This document shows, one piece after another, positions 1,218 through 10,200 of a stretch of 64,000 nucleotides of DNA. The stretch covers positions 24,374,089 to 24,438,088 of the forward strand of contig NC_049979.1 of the NCBI RefSeq assembly GCF_000003815.2. Reading direction: 5' to 3'. Under the pieces are notes generated by a model that had not been told where the DNA came from, ran no database searches, and saw only the letters and a program-made list of their open reading frames with translations. Source of the stretch: Branchiostoma floridae. Lineage: Eukaryota; Chordata; Leptocardii; Amphioxiformes; Branchiostomatidae. Numbering within the stretch: the stretch's first letter is position 1; the number at the start of each line of letters is the position of its first letter. The position numbers and the translations under genes are program-made.

Positions 1218-4200
1218 TTATTTGTTGAAGATGATTTTCTCCAATCCCACGAATGGTGTCTCCACTGCCACACACGTCAGGAAGGCCAGACCGAAGGATA
1301 GAGTCAAGTGTCCCAAGAAGAAATAGACCTGGAAAAGTCAAACGAACATTAATATTGAAAGTCAGCCAACCGATGTGTCTGCGCGTGTGTGTCTGTCTGT
1401 CTGTGTGTGTGTTGTAGAGTAGCGTGTGTGTCTGTGTGTGTGTGCATGTGTCTGTGTCTATGTGTGTCTATATGTGTGTGTGTCTGTGTGAGTGTGTGTT
1501 TGTGAGAGTCTGTGTGTTTGTGTGTGTGTGTGTGTGTCGGAGTGTGCGTGTGTGTGTGAGCAGCTGCAAATGGATCTTTATAATATTTGAAAGTGACTGG
1601 GGATCGGGAAAATGAAGGACATGTTGGATTATGGGTCTTAATGGCTTTCTAAGATACTGCAGCGGAGATTCCTGTTTTGAATCTCGTGTTCTGGACATGC
1701 TATAATCGTGACTTTATGGCGGTATTAGCTCTTGTGGAAAGAGCAAGTGGTGTAGGTTCGGGCCTCCCAGCGGCTTGAAACTGCAGCTGCAGGGGCCATT
1801 TGACTCTCAATCTTTGAAGGAGAAGGACCCAAGAAGGGGTTCCCTGATCGTCATGATCTTTCTTATGTAGTTAGAATACTGATGGCGTACACAATCGAAT
1901 GCTAAGGAAAGTAAAAATATGAAACCCTAGATCTAGTTTGTATTTTATCAATTTAGTATTCCCTCATCCTATTCACTAGTATGGAGTTTTCGCTCAGATT
2001 AGCGCAAAGGCATGCACTGATAGATAGATTGAATAAAGTACACAGTGTATGTACTTTCAAGTCATTTTGTCTTACAGAATTGTAACGCTAGTTCACCTTT
2101 ATCCGCAGGGTAACCTACATCCGTTGCTATCAAAACAGGGTATTTAAGGATTACAAGTCGACAGACGCTGCAATAGTTTGAAAATATTTTGAGAATATTG
2201 TAATTTGAAGCTACAGTTCGTCGACTTGATATCCCCAAATACAGTTTTTAAAACTAAACGGATTTAGGTTACCCGGCGGATAAAGGTGAAGCAGCGCTAC
2301 ATTAACGCACCATAGTGAAATTGGAGAAGTGGATGGGCCCCTCCATGGAGAGGTATACCACTAACACCAGCTGTTGATGTAACATGTAGGCACAGTAGTT
2401 CAGTCGGCTCAGGGGCACCCAGCCGTGCCAGGACAGAATGGTGTCCACCACTCCTGTAGGGAACAAAGTACATTAGGCCACATCGACTCAATTTTATGGA
2501 TGACATCCTCGAAAAAAAAGAATAATTCAGAAAAAAACTTAAGGCTGTTGACTTGTAACGACATAAGCCAAGTTTTAATTAAAATATCATTGTGTTTCGT
2601 GGAATGGAACAACAGTTGTTACATGACTAACGTAAGTAGGACTATGAATCTAAATAATATCTATGTAACGTTACCTCCGTATCCATGATGACATGCTACA
2701 ACCACCCAGCCAAGCGCCATGGCCCAGACGGTACGGTGGACAGTCAGGTACAGCACGTTCTCGGCTTCCGTCTGGAGGGTAGTGCCGATGTATATGCCGT
2801 ACGTTGCATACAACACAGCCACGGCAGAGGCGGCAGCAACAAGCCAACCAATAGTCATCAGCAGGCTCATGGTCTGGTGCAGAAAGATGTGAACAGAAAT
2901 AAATACAATCGTTGGTGTCCTAATTATGTTACAATTTTAAACTTTATATCCGTACACAAAACAAAGCGCTTACCAGCAAGCTTTCGATCAGTCATCTGAT
3001 CCTTTTCAAGTTGAAATTACAAAAAGCCTATTTCACACATCCAGACCGGAAGTATGACGTCAGCAATGGGTCAAAGGTGTTTGGAAGTCGGTATCGGCCC
3101 CCGTCTCGGTTGACGGAAGATTGATGGGCTCTGATGTAAATGACCTCTTTCACTCCCCTGAGAAAGCAACCCTGTCTTGGTTGTTTACATCAAGTTTATA
3201 TTGCTGTTATAATTTATCTAGTTGATATCATTTTCTTCCCATTACAGTATTGTTATTTATCTTCGGATCCGTGGTTTACGTTACTTTGTATCTGTTTAAG
3301 CTTGTTTCAGTTACTGCTTTATGAGTTTATTTATGTTTATTTGAAATGCGGATCCTGCGAAAAGAGCTCTGCAACAGACCTGAGTCAGCCTACAGATGTG
3401 CCCTATGTGGCAGAGACTGCCATTTTCGTATAGGACTGTTTAGCCACAGTCGACGCTGTAGGGCTGATATCAATTAGGATTTTACCATGGTCAATATTGA
3501 CCGAAGAAGGCCATATATTTGAAATGCAACAAAAAAGGAAAGAAATCCCACTGCACCTAACGTTATCTATTCAGAATGTATGGTTATGTGCTCGTTCAGA
3601 CAACGCGCTGTCAGTCTCGGAGGCCGGGCAATTGAACCTAACTTCAATTGTCCAATTGATGTTTCTACATTACGTTTATCTTAGATTTGAGCCAAGTCCA
3701 GCTGTATAGTACGCGGAAGTTTTAAAGCGTATTGTCATATCGATGTTTTTATGATATATGCCCAGTTGTAATATGTGGTTTTCCATGCTTGTATTGTAAC
3801 GTTACATTGTTCGTAATTTAGCTTTTAGTTGCGATGTATCACGTTTCAATAAATCTTTCAGTCATTCATTCATCCATTCATTCATTCATCCATTCATTCA
3901 TTCGAACATGTGTTTGACTCACGATGCTCCTTGTCTGTTTCCTTTTCATCTTAACCAACAGCCAGCCAACAGCAACTCCCACCAAGTACGGCCCGATACG
4001 ACAGTATGGCTTGCCATAGTACGTAACAAAGTCCCTGCAGACGAAATACAGTTAAAAGATGGTTGGATGCTAGCAATGGATAGTTATGTTTGTGAAATCC
4101 TCTACAGCAATGTAAAAAATGAATACAAAAGATTCACATGACAGCAATTATCTTATCAATCGAAACATTCTGGCAATTTTGAGGCAAATCGATCTTGGAC

Positions 4201-7200
4201 GGCCGAGCAAGGCGGGGTTAGAGGCTCATGCTGCTTAATATTCATGAGCATCCTTTGTTTACTCGTGATCCTCGGCCCTAATTGTCCTACGATGTCATTG
4301 GTCAGAAGGTCAGGTGATCTCTCATATCACCATATAAGGATGACCGTGGAGTGATCTATGTGCAGACAATTTGGTTCTCCGTCAGCCTAGGCCACGCTTT
4401 TCTTCGTTCCCGACCACAGCGGCTTCCCCGAGGAAATTGTCTACAAGCTTCGATTTGAGGACAGCCACGTTTGCCTAGAAATGCTTTATCCGTGGTCCCT
4501 TTTCTTCAGAAGGGAAAATGAAGGTTTGGTGAAATGTTGACATTTGTTTTACGTGCTTTATTCGTTGAGGGGAAATTTCCGTGCCCACGTGTTATGCGCT
4601 GACATTCTTTGTTGCCTTTTCGTGTGCTTGTCTTCGCCCAGCGTCGACATTTGACTCCGTTTTGTTTCAGTTTTCTTCTCTTGTAGTTCCCCAAGAATTT
4701 AGCTTGACGAGATACTTTTGGGGGCATGTTGTCAAGATGAACGATTTTCCTTTGTTCTCAGCTACGTATACGATGGCCAGCCGCCAGGTGCAGAATGTGT
4801 TTCCACTAATTAACTTGGAGCGTTTCTTTCCTAGGGAAGCCGCACTGGTCATTAAGATTTGTGGAAGATTTGAGGTGTGCGATATGTTTTATGTGTGTCT
4901 TTTACTGTTTTATCTGCCAGAAGTTTAGAAAGTCAAATGTGGTGCAGACTGCAGGGGTTACCACGAGGCCAGGACACACGTTGACTTAATTAATTTCCCA
5001 TCACCTGCATTCCTTGTTGGTTTGCCTTGTTTTCATTATTACCGGGTTAGGGAGCGTTTGGATGATTAGGTGTTAATTATTTGTTGGGATTTTCGTTTTC
5101 TTTCTGACGTTTGTTCATCGGCTCGAGCAAGGAGGATTGGCGAGTGGGAGACGCAGGTTTTCACATGTTTGTTCTGAGTTATTTTTCACAGATCTCCTGG
5201 CCGACGACAGAATTGACGTTATCACGAGGCCAGACTTCATATGCAGATTTTGCCGGCTCTGCTGTCAGGAATTAGCGACACCGTGCTGCACGTGGACAAG
5301 TTCTTCAGATTCCTGATTTTTTTTTCGGTGGTTGGTGGAAAACGTTTACGGTTACGTAAGCTTTGCTTTCGATTGAATTTGTTTCAGAGGATACGTTGAA
5401 TTATTAGATTGTGTATGGGGGTTTGATGTTGTTTTATTTTCGCTGGGGAAACTGTTGTATTCCGCATTTCGAGTTCCTCTCTTTGGCATGGTTGGGTTTA
5501 CGTGTGTGCCAGTTGTGGTTTGGAAGTTGTTTGGGAGCTGTATAAAAGGCTGCCTGGGAGGCATGTTATCGGCACGTTGTGGCCCTTTGTAACCAGGATA
5601 GCGCAGTGTGGTTGGTTTGTTTGGGAACTTGAGAGAATGTTACAACGTTGTTTTGCCACATTGCGCTAGTTAACTATGTACGTCTTTGGTTTACCAGTCC
5701 CTACGGTAGCCGGTACGAGCCAGTCCTTTCCTGGTTACCTGATTGAGAGAGGAGACGGCGGCGCCGGCCGGCTTCGGTTCATCAGGCGGCTCCAGTCCTG
5801 GTTCGCGCGGCGGCGGCACCGAGTCAGCAGGCTGCTCCAGTCCCGGTTCGCGCAGTCAGCAAGCGATTCCAGCCCTCGGGCCTTGAGCTGTGGTGGCACT
5901 AGCGGTTTTTGGTTTTTTGTTTCGTTACCACGGGTTTCTGGGTTTGTTTGCTATTGTCTGCATTGTTTTCTCCAGTAGATTTTCTATGCTAAGTTTTTTG
6001 TTAGTTTGTTGTTTTGTTTGTTGTTGTTTTTTTTTTTAGGCTTTGTAACCAGGCAGCAGTGTGGTAGGTTTGGTATGGAAGAGAGAATATTAATGTTGCA
6101 ACGTTTGTTTTTGCCATCTGTGTTTAGGCTTTAATAACTACGTATGTCTTTGTTAATAGCTCCCGCAACGACTTTAGGAGACGGATTGACGGCGTCGGCT
6201 TAGCAGGCGGCTCCAGTCCCGGAGTTGGTGGCTCCGAGTCAGCAGTCGGCTCCAGTCCTGGTTCACGTGGCGGTGCCAAGGCAGCAAGCACCAGTCCTGG
6301 TCCTAGCAGTGGTGGCTCCGAGTCAGCTGGCGATTCTTTGATTTCTTCCGTTGTTGTCTTTGTTCGTAGTCGTTACTAAGCAGTTCCCCGGTTTCGACGC
6401 TAGGTCGTTGGGGTGTAAAGTCGTTCCCCGGGTTCGACACTAAGTCGTTGGGGGTGTAAACTATTGCTCCCCGGTTTCGACACTAAGTCGTTGGGGGTGT
6501 AAACTATTGTTCCCCGGTTTCGACACTAAGTCGTTGGGGGTGTAAAGTATTGTCCCCCGGTTTCGACACTAAGTCGTTGGGGGTGTAAAGTATTGTTCCC
6601 CGGTTTCGACACTAAGTCGTTGGGGTGTAAAGTATCGTTCCCCGGTTTCGACACTAAGTCGTTGGGGGTGTAAACTATTGCTCCCCGGTTTCGACACTAA
6701 GTCGTTGGGGTGTAAACTATTGTTCCCCGGTTTCGACACTAAGTCGTTGGGGGTGTAAAGTATTGTCCCCCGGTTTCGACACTAAGTCGTTGGGGGTGTA
6801 AACTATTGTTCCCCGGTTTCGACACTAAGTCGTTGGGGTGTAAAGTATCGTTCCCCGGTTTCGACACTAAGTCGTTGGGGGTGTAAACTATTGCTCCCCG
6901 GTTTCGACACTAAGTCGTTGGGGTATAAACTTTAGTTCCCTGGTTCGGCACTAAGTCGTTACGGGTTATTTTTGTGTAGAATTTGTTAAGTATCGATGTT
7001 TGTTTCGATGCTAGACCTATTGGTTGATGTGAAGAGGCGAGATAACGTGTAAGTAAAAGAAGTGTTTGTGCGTGGCATGTTACTGACAGGAATTGCAAGC
7101 TCTGATTCAGCGCACAGATATTGAAGAGACAGACCAGGCTACGGAGCTTCTGTTTAATCGAAGCACGGACGTAAGCAACAAGATGAAGCCCGGAATTCCG

Positions 7201-10200
7201 ACCCCTGTTACATCATCTACTCTCTGACTGCAGGAGCTCCCGTGGAGGGGCCAGCGAGGCATCGTCTGAGTTTGGATATTGTTGTAAAGAAGATGTTGTT
7301 TGGTTTGATATGACTATATCTAGGTTATAAAATAGAAAATTGAAGATTGTATAGACTTTAATAAACTTGGATAGGCAAATGGCATATATGTATTTATATG
7401 TTTTGTATATACGTGAATTCACCTGATGTTTTCAGGTTATTAATAAAGAACTTTGTTGTGTGGTGCGTCTCTTTTCTGTAGCATGTTCTTTCTTAGTTTG
7501 CTGATGGTTAAAAAGTTTTCAGTTTTGAGAGGCTTTTGTCGTGCTCATAGTCTTAGTTTATTTATTCTTAAACGAGGCGGTGTAAAGTGCTGGGGTAAAT
7601 GGTGATCTATATTACGAGCTTGATAGTTGATTTACATATTGCGAACGGCACCAGATAATGGTTTGTGTAAATTGAGTTGAGAGTGGGAATAGTTGATGAT
7701 TTATATAACTTGACATGAGAGTGAGAACAGAGGTTGGTTTGTTAGTATGAAAGAAGATTGGGGATTGTATAGCGTGAAATGAGAGTGGGGATAAATGATA
7801 GATTGAATAAAATGAAATGAGAGTTGGGGTAAGTTATGGTTTAAGAAGAAGACTCTGCTCTACTTAGACACACTGGGCGTGTTTTAGGGAAGGTAAGGGC
7901 AGAAGTAACAAGTGCAACTAGTGCGGAAGACGGCAATCTCCGCATCATCTATTCACCTACACCGGAGGACCAATGATTACGCAGGATAATTAGGAAACTA
8001 ATTGTCCTACGATGTCATTGGTCAGAAGGTCAGGTGATCTCTCATATCACCATATAAGGATGACCGTGGAGTGATCTATGTGCAGACAATTTGGTTCTCC
8101 GGCTGCCGCTAGGCCTAAAGCGACCCACCCAGCCCGCCCTAACACATTTTCCTCGGGGAAGCACGCGACCGCTCAGGAGCGGTCGCATTAGAAACCATGA
8201 AACTTTAGGCTTCAGACGGCAATCTCCGCATCATCTATTCACCTACACCGGAGGACCAATGATTACGCAGGATAATTAGGAAACGAATAGTCATGATCAT
8301 GCTCCGGGCACGTGTTGCAGGGCGGACGGAGCAGTTAATTAATATTCATGAGTCCAAACACCCCGTGGCAGTCCAACTCAGCCAACGTGTTGACTGGTCC
8401 TCCCAGAGGAACTAAACAATACCACAGCATGTCAGCATTGACTACTGTAATTCTTGAAATTCTCGCGTCTGGAAATTATAGCGTTTTGGGGAAAATGGAG
8501 TAACTCGCGTCACTTAATTTTAGCGTTGTGAAGGAGCCGCTAAATTTTCAGTCGGATGTGTGAAAAAATAGCATGAATATCACCAAAACCCTCGATAGTT
8601 TACATGCCTAAAGTCCGAAAAATACATGACTAGAAATAACATACACGCCAGCGCTGCGTGTGGTTCTGAATAATAAACAACTTCCGTACCGACGCGGTGA
8701 TTTCAAAACGCGCTTGACGGCCGCCGACTCTGGCCGGCCGGCGGCCCGCTAAATTTTGACGGACATAGCCGACCTAACGATGACAACAGCCCACTTGATA
8801 CTGCTGTCGTGAATAAGGAAGCTGAGAAAGCCATACAGGCGGCGAACAGCGAGAAAAAACGTAGCGGGAACCACCACCATACTCCGGAAGCAGGACCAAG
8901 ATTGCGAAATTTGGTAGCGAAAACTTGTGAGGGACGTCAGCGAATCTCGAATCGGCCACGCATTCGATCAAAAAGACGTTTCTGGAAGAAGTCGCCCGCC
9001 ATGGAACGAACAAGATCGCAAACTTTTCACACAAAAAACATCGCCAGACTTGAAGGTTGCCGACCTCGATGCGGCACCGCAGAAATAATTTTTGTGAGAA
9101 CATGCGGCGCAGGGTCGGCGCCATTTTGAAAGTTGATTGTTGTTGTTTGTACGCTTGGGTGGCGGCGGATTCTTGTAATGAGGGTTTGATTCCGAATTGT
9201 TCGTAGCTCACAAAAAAACACGCCTTACATATTGCGCTTTGACGCTATGAATTTGACTGTATTTCTGCCTAGAAATTCGTAGATTTACACCAAATATTCC
9301 GTAGTGGCTTTGTATTTTTTTCTGCGACGCCATTTTTGCTGTTGTTGTCTGCACGCTAAGATGACGCGGACATTTTCTAAGTCTTGTGTAACATCGTAGC
9401 ACAACGTGAACTTCGTAACTGTTTTGTATATTTTATGGACAAACTTCTAAATCGTAGCGTAGAATAATATTGATAAATACGATTGTGTAAATATGCAGCT
9501 CAGTTCGTAACGAATTTGTGTTGTTTGCGTCAGCAATGACTCAGCATGCTTTCACTGCATTTTGTAAAAGAAATGACGACAAACTTTCCATTTAAATATA
9601 TGTTTTATTTCTTGAAGAACGACGAACTTCTTGTTCCTGTGTGAATTACTAGTGTAATGTGTGCACGTTTTTGTAAAGGATAAGAGTTATATCGTGACCG
9701 TATATAACAAAACCAGAAATCGGTGCCGCGACATTAGAGGGAGGGGGGCGGTGGTGAATTCGCGTAATGAAAAAGTCGCGTAATGAAAATTTAGCGCTCG
9801 ACTAGTGGGCGCTAAAAACGCTAAAATTAAGTTACCGCAATAAAATCAAGAATTACAGTATATATCAAGAACGCTAAAGTCAGGATTAATACATAGTGAA
9901 TCAGTCATGTACGTCACCGCCTTTGCTATGACGCGTTGTGCTCTGTCATTTCAGGAATACTAAACGGTATCCTTACCCGTCAGGTGCTTTCATATCATAG
10001 TGCCAAGTGAGCACTGCAGTGGTGATGAAGCTAGCCAACAGGACAGCCAGCTGCACAGCAATCCCCAATATCTGCCATCTGGGAGTAAGCAAGTTTTATC
10101 ATGTGCAAAACGTAGCCACGGGTCTCATATGTCTTTCTGAGGGAAGGAATCTAAGTAGGTATTAATCAAATGTATCTTGGTTATACATATATTTGCAATT

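Follow-up and report, generated by a model that had tools for sequence, protein, structure and literature searches.

In Chlamydomonas, TOC1 is an element of kilobase scale that does not code for protein; its terminal repeats are rearranged, it contains internal tandem repeats, and it has a coding relative, TOC3. Ngaro-like elements with split repeats are known in amphioxus (PMC2632668), ALOG-containing DIRS1-type retroposons carrying an inactive methylase were described by Iyer and Aravind in 2012 from hosts that include Branchiostoma floridae (PMC3537659), and SIRE of Trypanosoma cruzi corresponds to the A2-B2 region of VIPER, having been described as a truncated form of VIPER that is not autonomous (PMC6681497). 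Here we analyse an element with split direct repeats located in a stretch of 64,000 nucleotides of the B. floridae genome (contig NC_049979.1, 24,374,089-24,438,088; hereafter the window, whose positions serve as coordinates), together with its copies and relatives in the genome searched (513 Mb in 431 contigs). This element is very probably a non-autonomous split-direct-repeat tyrosine recombinase (YR) retrotransposon of the DIRS order, mobilised in trans by YR elements of the ALOG type that reside in the same genome.

With the Ngaro-like elements of amphioxus (PMC2632668) and of Cafeteria (PMC8547959), the latter also occurring as solo AB units, the window element shares the A1-[..]-B1A2B2 geometry; those elements are, in the accessible text, coding elements or relics, whereas the window element has no shared open reading frame (ORF) and the recombinase of its relatives is of the ALOG type. 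The ALOG retroposons have the same recombinase class as the relatives L050, L063, L055, L060 and L043 (Pfam ALOG), but the accessible description (PMC3537659) is of coding elements or remnants and mentions no non-coding passengers, while the window element lacks coding frames, retains its split repeats in full and shows signs of recent mobility. An inactive methylase is reported there, whereas the 741-aa frame of L050, itself a damaged locus, gave no methylase match at E 0.1. SIRE resembles the loci that here consist of A, the spacer S and B only; it has no A1...B1 part, whereas the window element retains the full geometry and a 3.5-kb interior. An earlier sequence-only reading of the window had regarded non-coding derivatives of the DIRS group as rarely described, a statement that has to be weakened in view of SIRE and the solo AB units already on record (and, reportedly, of TOC1). 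TOC1 resembles the window element in the traits given above but comes from another host and, apparently, from another branch. To the known systems the present analysis adds a non-coding family that keeps the full geometry and is linked to the ALOG class, with signs of recent movement and with a palindromic junction whose arms change together.

Layout, copies and insertion of the element

In the window the repeats follow each other in the order A1, 3.5 kb, B1A2, 112 bp and B2 (Table 1), with A1 identical to A2 at 103/103 positions and B1 to B2 at 71/71, and these coordinates and identities bear out the A1...B1-A2-B2 layout, with B1 abutting A2, that had been proposed from the sequence alone. 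The left end (T4279) opens with TAATTGTCC..., the right end (C8284) closes with ...GGAAAC, and the B1/A2 junction reads GGAAAC/TAATTGTCC. The bordering bases are ...CTCGGCCC on the left and GAATAGTC... on the right. The arrangement is not due to chance, as the A repeat has at least 19 matches in the genome; six full copies, each with its A1/A2 pair, account for 12 of these matches, and the search for further copies has thus yielded five besides that of the window. The remaining seven matches correspond to five A-S-B-only loci and, for two of them, to a single rearranged or truncated 5' copy (L022/L029), and a search with S located a further fragment (L028). All six full copies have the A1...B1A2-S-B2 layout within mutually unrelated flanks, measure from 3,503 to 4,307 bp and are 88-99% alike over alignable columns, with a variable number of units in the 43-bp array. 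A 45-bp tandem array, strongly expanded relative to the window copy and free of stops in several frames, was observed at L029:2025-2615 and at element positions 1477-2236 of L020.

The multicopy layout bears on two outcomes that would have told against the proposed geometry. A local duplication of B is rejected, as the B pair is found in six of six full copies at unrelated sites. Furthermore, an ordinary or damaged long terminal repeat (LTR) retrotransposon whose LTRs had been mis-parsed would account for paired direct repeats that are near-identical within a copy, and the single A-S-B units look like solo LTRs; this explanation is nevertheless hardly tenable and was rejected, because the left end holds A only and the right end B1A2-S-B2 in all six full copies, because one copy (L023, below) inserted exactly and without target duplication, and because the relatives carry a tyrosine recombinase. 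The chance juxtaposition of two separate elements, [A-interior-B] and [A-S-B], is scarcely more plausible: lone A-S-B units do exist at five loci (L021, L024, L025, L026 and L027), but the compound is common to the six full copies and to L050 and its halves change together within a copy, which led us to reject it. Indeed, A-S-B alone is the expected product of recombination between A1 and A2, the origin proposed for the solo AB repeats of Cafeteria (PMC8547959), and no cleanly inserted full-length copy made of A, interior and B only was seen among the loci fetched. Two of the A-S-B units, L026 (C10:0.59 Mb) and L027 (C10:2.56 Mb), lie in opposite orientation within the same flanks, and therefore probably stem from a single insertion event that was duplicated with its surroundings. 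Helitrons typically begin with 5' TC and end with 3' CTRR, have a hairpin 10-15 nt inside and insert between A and T. A Helitron was rejected here on account of the ends TAATTG...GGAAAC, of a hairpin that ends 98 nt from the right end, and of the bases flanking the six copies (left^right: C^G, C^T, C^T, C^T, A^T and G^T).

The paired repeats also inform on the age of the element. Among the six copies, 10 columns are variable in A and 5 in B. In 14 of the 15 there is no copy whose two repeats disagree, the exception being one base in L023; at position 11, the window copy has an A found in no other copy, and has it in A1 as well as in A2. The A pair is identical in five of six copies and the B pair in six of six, which amounts to one difference between paired repeats over about 1,040 paired sites. 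Such joint change is expected from template-based renewal at each move, as in LTRs, and gene conversion alone is the weaker account of it. L019 and L020 are, furthermore, 98.9% identical in unrelated flanks. Both observations agree with the young age previously suggested, and the comparison of copies supports recent activity of the family.

The insertion of L023 could be compared with element-free sequence: its joined flanks match two paralogs devoid of the element, one at 91% over 164 bases, with no gain or loss of length, the other at 85%, and these empty paralogs (L065 and L066) read CTCAG/TATCC straight through the insertion point. L023 inserted exactly, with its target neither duplicated nor lost, into what is, in our reading, a LINE-like (long interspersed nuclear element) reading frame. 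The absence of target duplication, which the sequence-only reading gave as a property of Ngaro and PAT elements, is thus confirmed for one copy of six, against paralogs. The base to the right of the insertion is T in 5/6 copies and that to the left is C in 4/6, which resembles the C^T of the circle junction, six being a small number.

No coding frame common to the copies was seen in the interior. ORFs were counted from stop to stop at 120 aa or more in the six full copies, which contain none (window, L017), one (L018, L023), three (L019) and five (L020) of them; the window copy has eight ORFs of 61-115 aa. Tandem arrays account for 80-90% of each of the four longest ORFs of L020, for about 30% of the two longest of L019 and for 36% of that of L018, the other three lying outside the arrays. 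No ORF of at least 120 aa is common to the six copies, the two window frames scanned in Pfam gave no match above the cut-off (best E 0.052), and the Rfam scan of the window element gave none at E 0.1. A coding interior was accordingly rejected and the non-coding nature first proposed for the element holds. The reverse transcriptase (RT), RNase H and tyrosine recombinase of split-repeat YR retrotransposons were not found in the window element, nor was a YR with an N-terminal ALOG domain, which the relatives do encode. Since the geometry is that of the split-repeat elements but the coding content is not, the element is classed as a non-autonomous derivative and not as a coding member.

Coding relatives of the ALOG class

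A genome search with PF00589 gave at least 51 matches, of which the best 20 of 51 were examined as loci; one of these, L044, carries a split-repeat end, and its enlarged locus, L050, has the same geometry as the window element around a CCHC gag-like piece, a weak RT-like sequence and a YR (Table 1). An RT motif (YIDD) and RNase H motifs were read in L050 by eye. The search for a coding relative thus met with success for geometry, gag-like, weakly RT-like and YR parts, with RNase H by eye only. The B1/A2 junction of L050 is 75-77% like the window type over 52 nt (E 0.005 with the window copy and about 1e-4 with four other copies). From its YR end, at least 27 genome matches were obtained, 12 of 27 being examined as loci.

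The repeat module itself recurs in a closer relative. In L063, the enlarged locus of L059, the B1-A2-S-B2 module is 67.6% identical to that of the window over 374 nt (E 2.8e-24), and ALOG (E 4.5e-19) and YR (E 1.2e-7) are matched in two overlapping frames upstream of it. No A1 was seen on the upstream side of L063, where satellite-like DNA and gaps are found. Pfam ALOG was also matched in L055 (E 9.9e-23), L060 (E 2.9e-27) and L043 (E 7.4e-19); in L060 the YR match does not reach the Pfam cut-off, and the single frame of L056 has a YR match only. By these domain matches, the relatives of the window element are of the ALOG-recombinase class. Long open frames with ALOG and YR were observed at L055:388-2118 (577 aa), L060:304-1896 (531 aa) and L043:817-1908 (364 aa). 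The split-repeat layout of the Ngaro/PAT type assigned by the sequence-only reading stands in six of six copies. Ngaro elements differ from PAT in having no methyltransferase domain between RNase H and YR; with no methylase match in the damaged L050 and an inactive methylase reported for ALOG elements, either label may apply. The proposal of a non-coding passenger of a tyrosine recombinase retroelement is supported by the geometry, by L050 and L063 and by the insertion of L023.

The balance between coding and non-coding copies was examined through their ends. A B-end pattern search found 55 places in the genome and none in the reversed control, and a sister group with L063-type ends (TACGCATGATAAATAGGAAAC-type pairs) accounts for 13 places with B1/B2 pairs 249-287 bp apart. 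When the recombinase frame of L063 was used as query (at least 51 matches; 89/89 candidates scored), it found itself and then, among the matches listed, none above 55% identity, that one partial; the best near-full-length matches reach 47-50%, and the best full-length one other than itself 47%. By coordinates, L063 is the only one of the 13 sister places near a YR match listed, and none of the window-type copies is. The other sister place that was read, L064, shares 451 nt of its 3' end with L063 at 89%, and no YR match was found in the 825 readable bases before this shared end, 3.2 kb upstream being a gap. As judged from these ends, the non-coding elements probably fall into two sets, window-type and sister-type, for which a single recombinase copy has matching ends, and this copy is interrupted in the assembly. 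The lack of a second close copy of the L063 recombinase, while 13 places share its ends, points to many passengers for one driver; assembly gaps and counts that are lower bounds could hide further recombinase copies.

The few copies, the interrupted YR of L050 and L063, the L063 recombinase without a second close copy among the matches listed and the judgement of Iyer and Aravind (PMC3537659) that metazoan ALOG elements are inactive are all what a dead relic family of old, immobile deletion derivatives would present. We consider this unlikely, though the least so of the alternatives, in view of the single paired-repeat difference over about 1,040 sites in six copies, of the near-identity of L019 and L020 at unrelated sites, and of the long open ALOG-YR frames (577 and 531 aa) kept by related families.

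Table 1. Coordinates of the window element and of its coding relative L050, with the loci of the copies
Locus	Feature	Position	Strand	Remarks
Window	Whole element	4279-8284	+	4,006 bp; ends TAATTG...GGAAAC, fixed by 6 copies in unrelated flanks
Window	A1 repeat, left terminus	4279-4381	+	ATTGG at position 19, TATAA at position 55
Window	Non-coding interior	4382-7927	.	ORF, Pfam and Rfam scans
Window	15-nt segment complementary to S 8148-8162	4422-4436	+	Sequence comparison
Window	Tandem array	6383-6960	+	About 14 units of 42-43 bp; unit number differs among copies
Window	B1 repeat	7928-7998	+	
Window	Junction palindrome at B1/A2	7983-8008	.	AGGATAATTAG[GAAA]CTAATTGTCCT; 11-bp arms, one mismatch
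Window	A2 repeat	7999-8101	+	Directly abuts B1
Window	S spacer	8102-8213	+	112 bp; hairpin GCGACCGCT[CAGG]AGCGGTCGC at 8165-8186 within outer stem
Window	B2 repeat, right terminus	8214-8284	+	
L050	A1	2247-2353		97.2% identical to A2
L050	CCHC gag-like piece			E 0.0022, below Pfam's cut-off
L050	741-aa frame			ALOG at aa 596-714, E 3.6e-23; weak RT matches in PDB, best E 0.011
L050	YR			PF00589, E 2.3e-6, interrupted pieces
L050	3' end	B1 8157-8216, then A2, spacer, B2 8491-8550		
Genome	Full copies			Window (C1), L017 (C18), L018 (C11), L019 (C19), L020 (C2), L023 (C5)
Genome	A-S-B-only loci			L021 (deletion in S), L024, L025, L026, L027

A palindrome at the B1/A2 junction and other shared signals

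The B1/A2 junction is an inverted repeat in the window family and in several related families that have different arms. It is perfect in L023 (CGCAGGACAATTAG[GAAA]CTAATTGTCCTGCG) and in L063 (CATGATAAATAG[GAAA]CTATTTATCATG), has 17-bp arms with one mismatch and a 9-nt centre in L060-L062, and is built around TTGGTACT in L042 and L048, whose arms measure 15 bp with one mismatch and 17 bp with three, respectively. For 12 of 15 junctions the score was matched by none of the null positions of the locus concerned; null positions did reach it in the other three (2/345 in the window, 7/243 in L055 and 80/864 in L050). Placing the centre within 6 nt of the repeat boundary had missed four of the 15 junctions (L061, L062, L042 and L048), chance matches shifting the boundary, so that the counts given here are those for a radius of 12 nt, applied equally to the junctions and to the null positions. 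Lox-like sites were observed at the junctions of L042, L048, L050, L055, L056 and L060-L063, that of L050 being weak.

These 15 junctions represent about seven families by our own grouping, near-copies included, and come from loci chosen for a recognisable repeat pair. Among the 21 loci screened, L030, L031, L036, L046 and L052 have direct repeats but no junction palindrome, and L033, L045, L053, L054, L057 and L058 have no repeat in the size range; these 11 loci were left out of the test. Two loci negative by the stricter screen were retained: the geometry of L050 was already known, and L048 has its centre in common with L042. The junction of L043 was read by eye only. The palindrome rule is accordingly shown for the chosen set of loci rather than for YR loci in general.

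The binding site of a tyrosine recombinase typically consists of inverted arms that flank a short crossover region. From one family to another the left and the right arm change together, a pattern not easily accounted for unless the palindrome as such is maintained. The junction palindrome is likely a recombinase site and an internal copy of the circle junction. For DIRS1-like elements, a 3-bp circular junction is described in PMC3266345. No statement on a junction palindrome was met in the open literature searched, including the main text of PMC8547959, PMC9210276 and PMC3266345, subscription reviews being outside this scope; the lox-like palindrome at B1/A2 is new relative to that search, and priority is not claimed.

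Other signals are shared between the families. The five A repeats examined (window, L023, L063, L050 and L064) all have ATTGG at their position 19 and TATAA at 55-58; ATTGG is an inverted CCAAT and, with TATAA, makes A1 a likely promoter. The predicted fold of S is alike in the window and L063, where a long hairpin with a loop of 4 nt lies within an outer stem, with z-scores of -2.5 (window, B included) and -3.6 (L063). Pairs were counted by script on a fixed ten-row alignment without shuffled control, leaving out L018, L020, L021, L050 and L064, and covariation is thin, with one two-sided change in the hairpin, in L063. This locus breaks five of the ten outer-stem pairs in the fixed alignment and restores the stem in a shifted register in its own fold; three pairs are broken in L026, two in L027 and two in L028. 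Furthermore, on the 5' side, the sequence that directly follows A1 includes a segment able to pair with S, the complementarity extending over 11-21 nt in 6/6 copies and being absent from L050. A purine-rich motif like ATGAGAGTGGG was seen by eye at window 7661-7838 and also upstream of B1 in L050 and L064, and might be a candidate priming tract.

Proposed route of movement and its meaning

The steps of movement would follow the published PAT/Ngaro model, as mentioned in PMC6681497. Transcription would begin some 30 nt beyond the TATA word, close to where A1 gives way to the interior, and the RNA would end in B2, so that the transcript would be devoid of the outer part of A and of B. Both missing parts are already joined in B1A2, which could template their restoration during reverse transcription and bridge the ends of the cDNA into a circle. 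In this circle the B2/A1 junction would equal B1/A2, a palindrome in which GAAA is flanked by arms of up to 14 bp and on which a tyrosine recombinase supplied in trans would recombine the circle with a loosely chosen chromosomal site and leave no duplication.

An element of DNA only, Crypton-like or another circle, moved by a YR and never passing through RNA, would explain part of this, given that the junction palindrome and the exact insertion require a recombinase alone, that the RT of L050 is weakly supported and that RNA passage is a matter of interpretation. It appears improbable, because a DNA circle needs no duplication of A1/A2 and B1/B2, because the concerted change of both pairs and the promoter-like words in A fit renewal by reverse transcription, and because L050, of the same geometry, has a CCHC piece and an RT-like sequence.

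Several points weigh against a DIRS-order retrotransposon moved in trans. Passage through RNA, the circle and the supply of recombinase in trans are steps that we infer, and gene conversion could partly produce the concerted repeats. The RT of L050 was not recognised by Pfam and its RNase H was matched by no search, while the YR frames of L050 and L063 are both interrupted. No coding copy was found with B ends nearly identical to those of the window, as only the two places of L063 out of 55 lie near a listed YR match. Finally, the exact insertion covers 1/6 full copies.

One reading of the observations is that the split repeats of ALOG-type YR retrotransposons serve to carry a self-renewing lox-like site whose arms, one in B and one in A, would co-evolve with the recombinase, and that non-coding elements may persist by keeping this site, the RNA fold and the 5'-3' pairing, outnumbering the sole recombinase copy with matching ends, and recently mobile in a living chordate; we hold the chances of this joint reading to be evenly balanced. 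Little is known of the binding sites of the recombinases of animal retrotransposons, and the geometry described here points to such a site, with family-specific arms that make the pairing between recombinase and site directly testable. The young non-coding copies, moreover, suggest that elements with an ALOG-class recombinase, judged inactive in animals (PMC3537659), worked recently in the Branchiostoma floridae genome.

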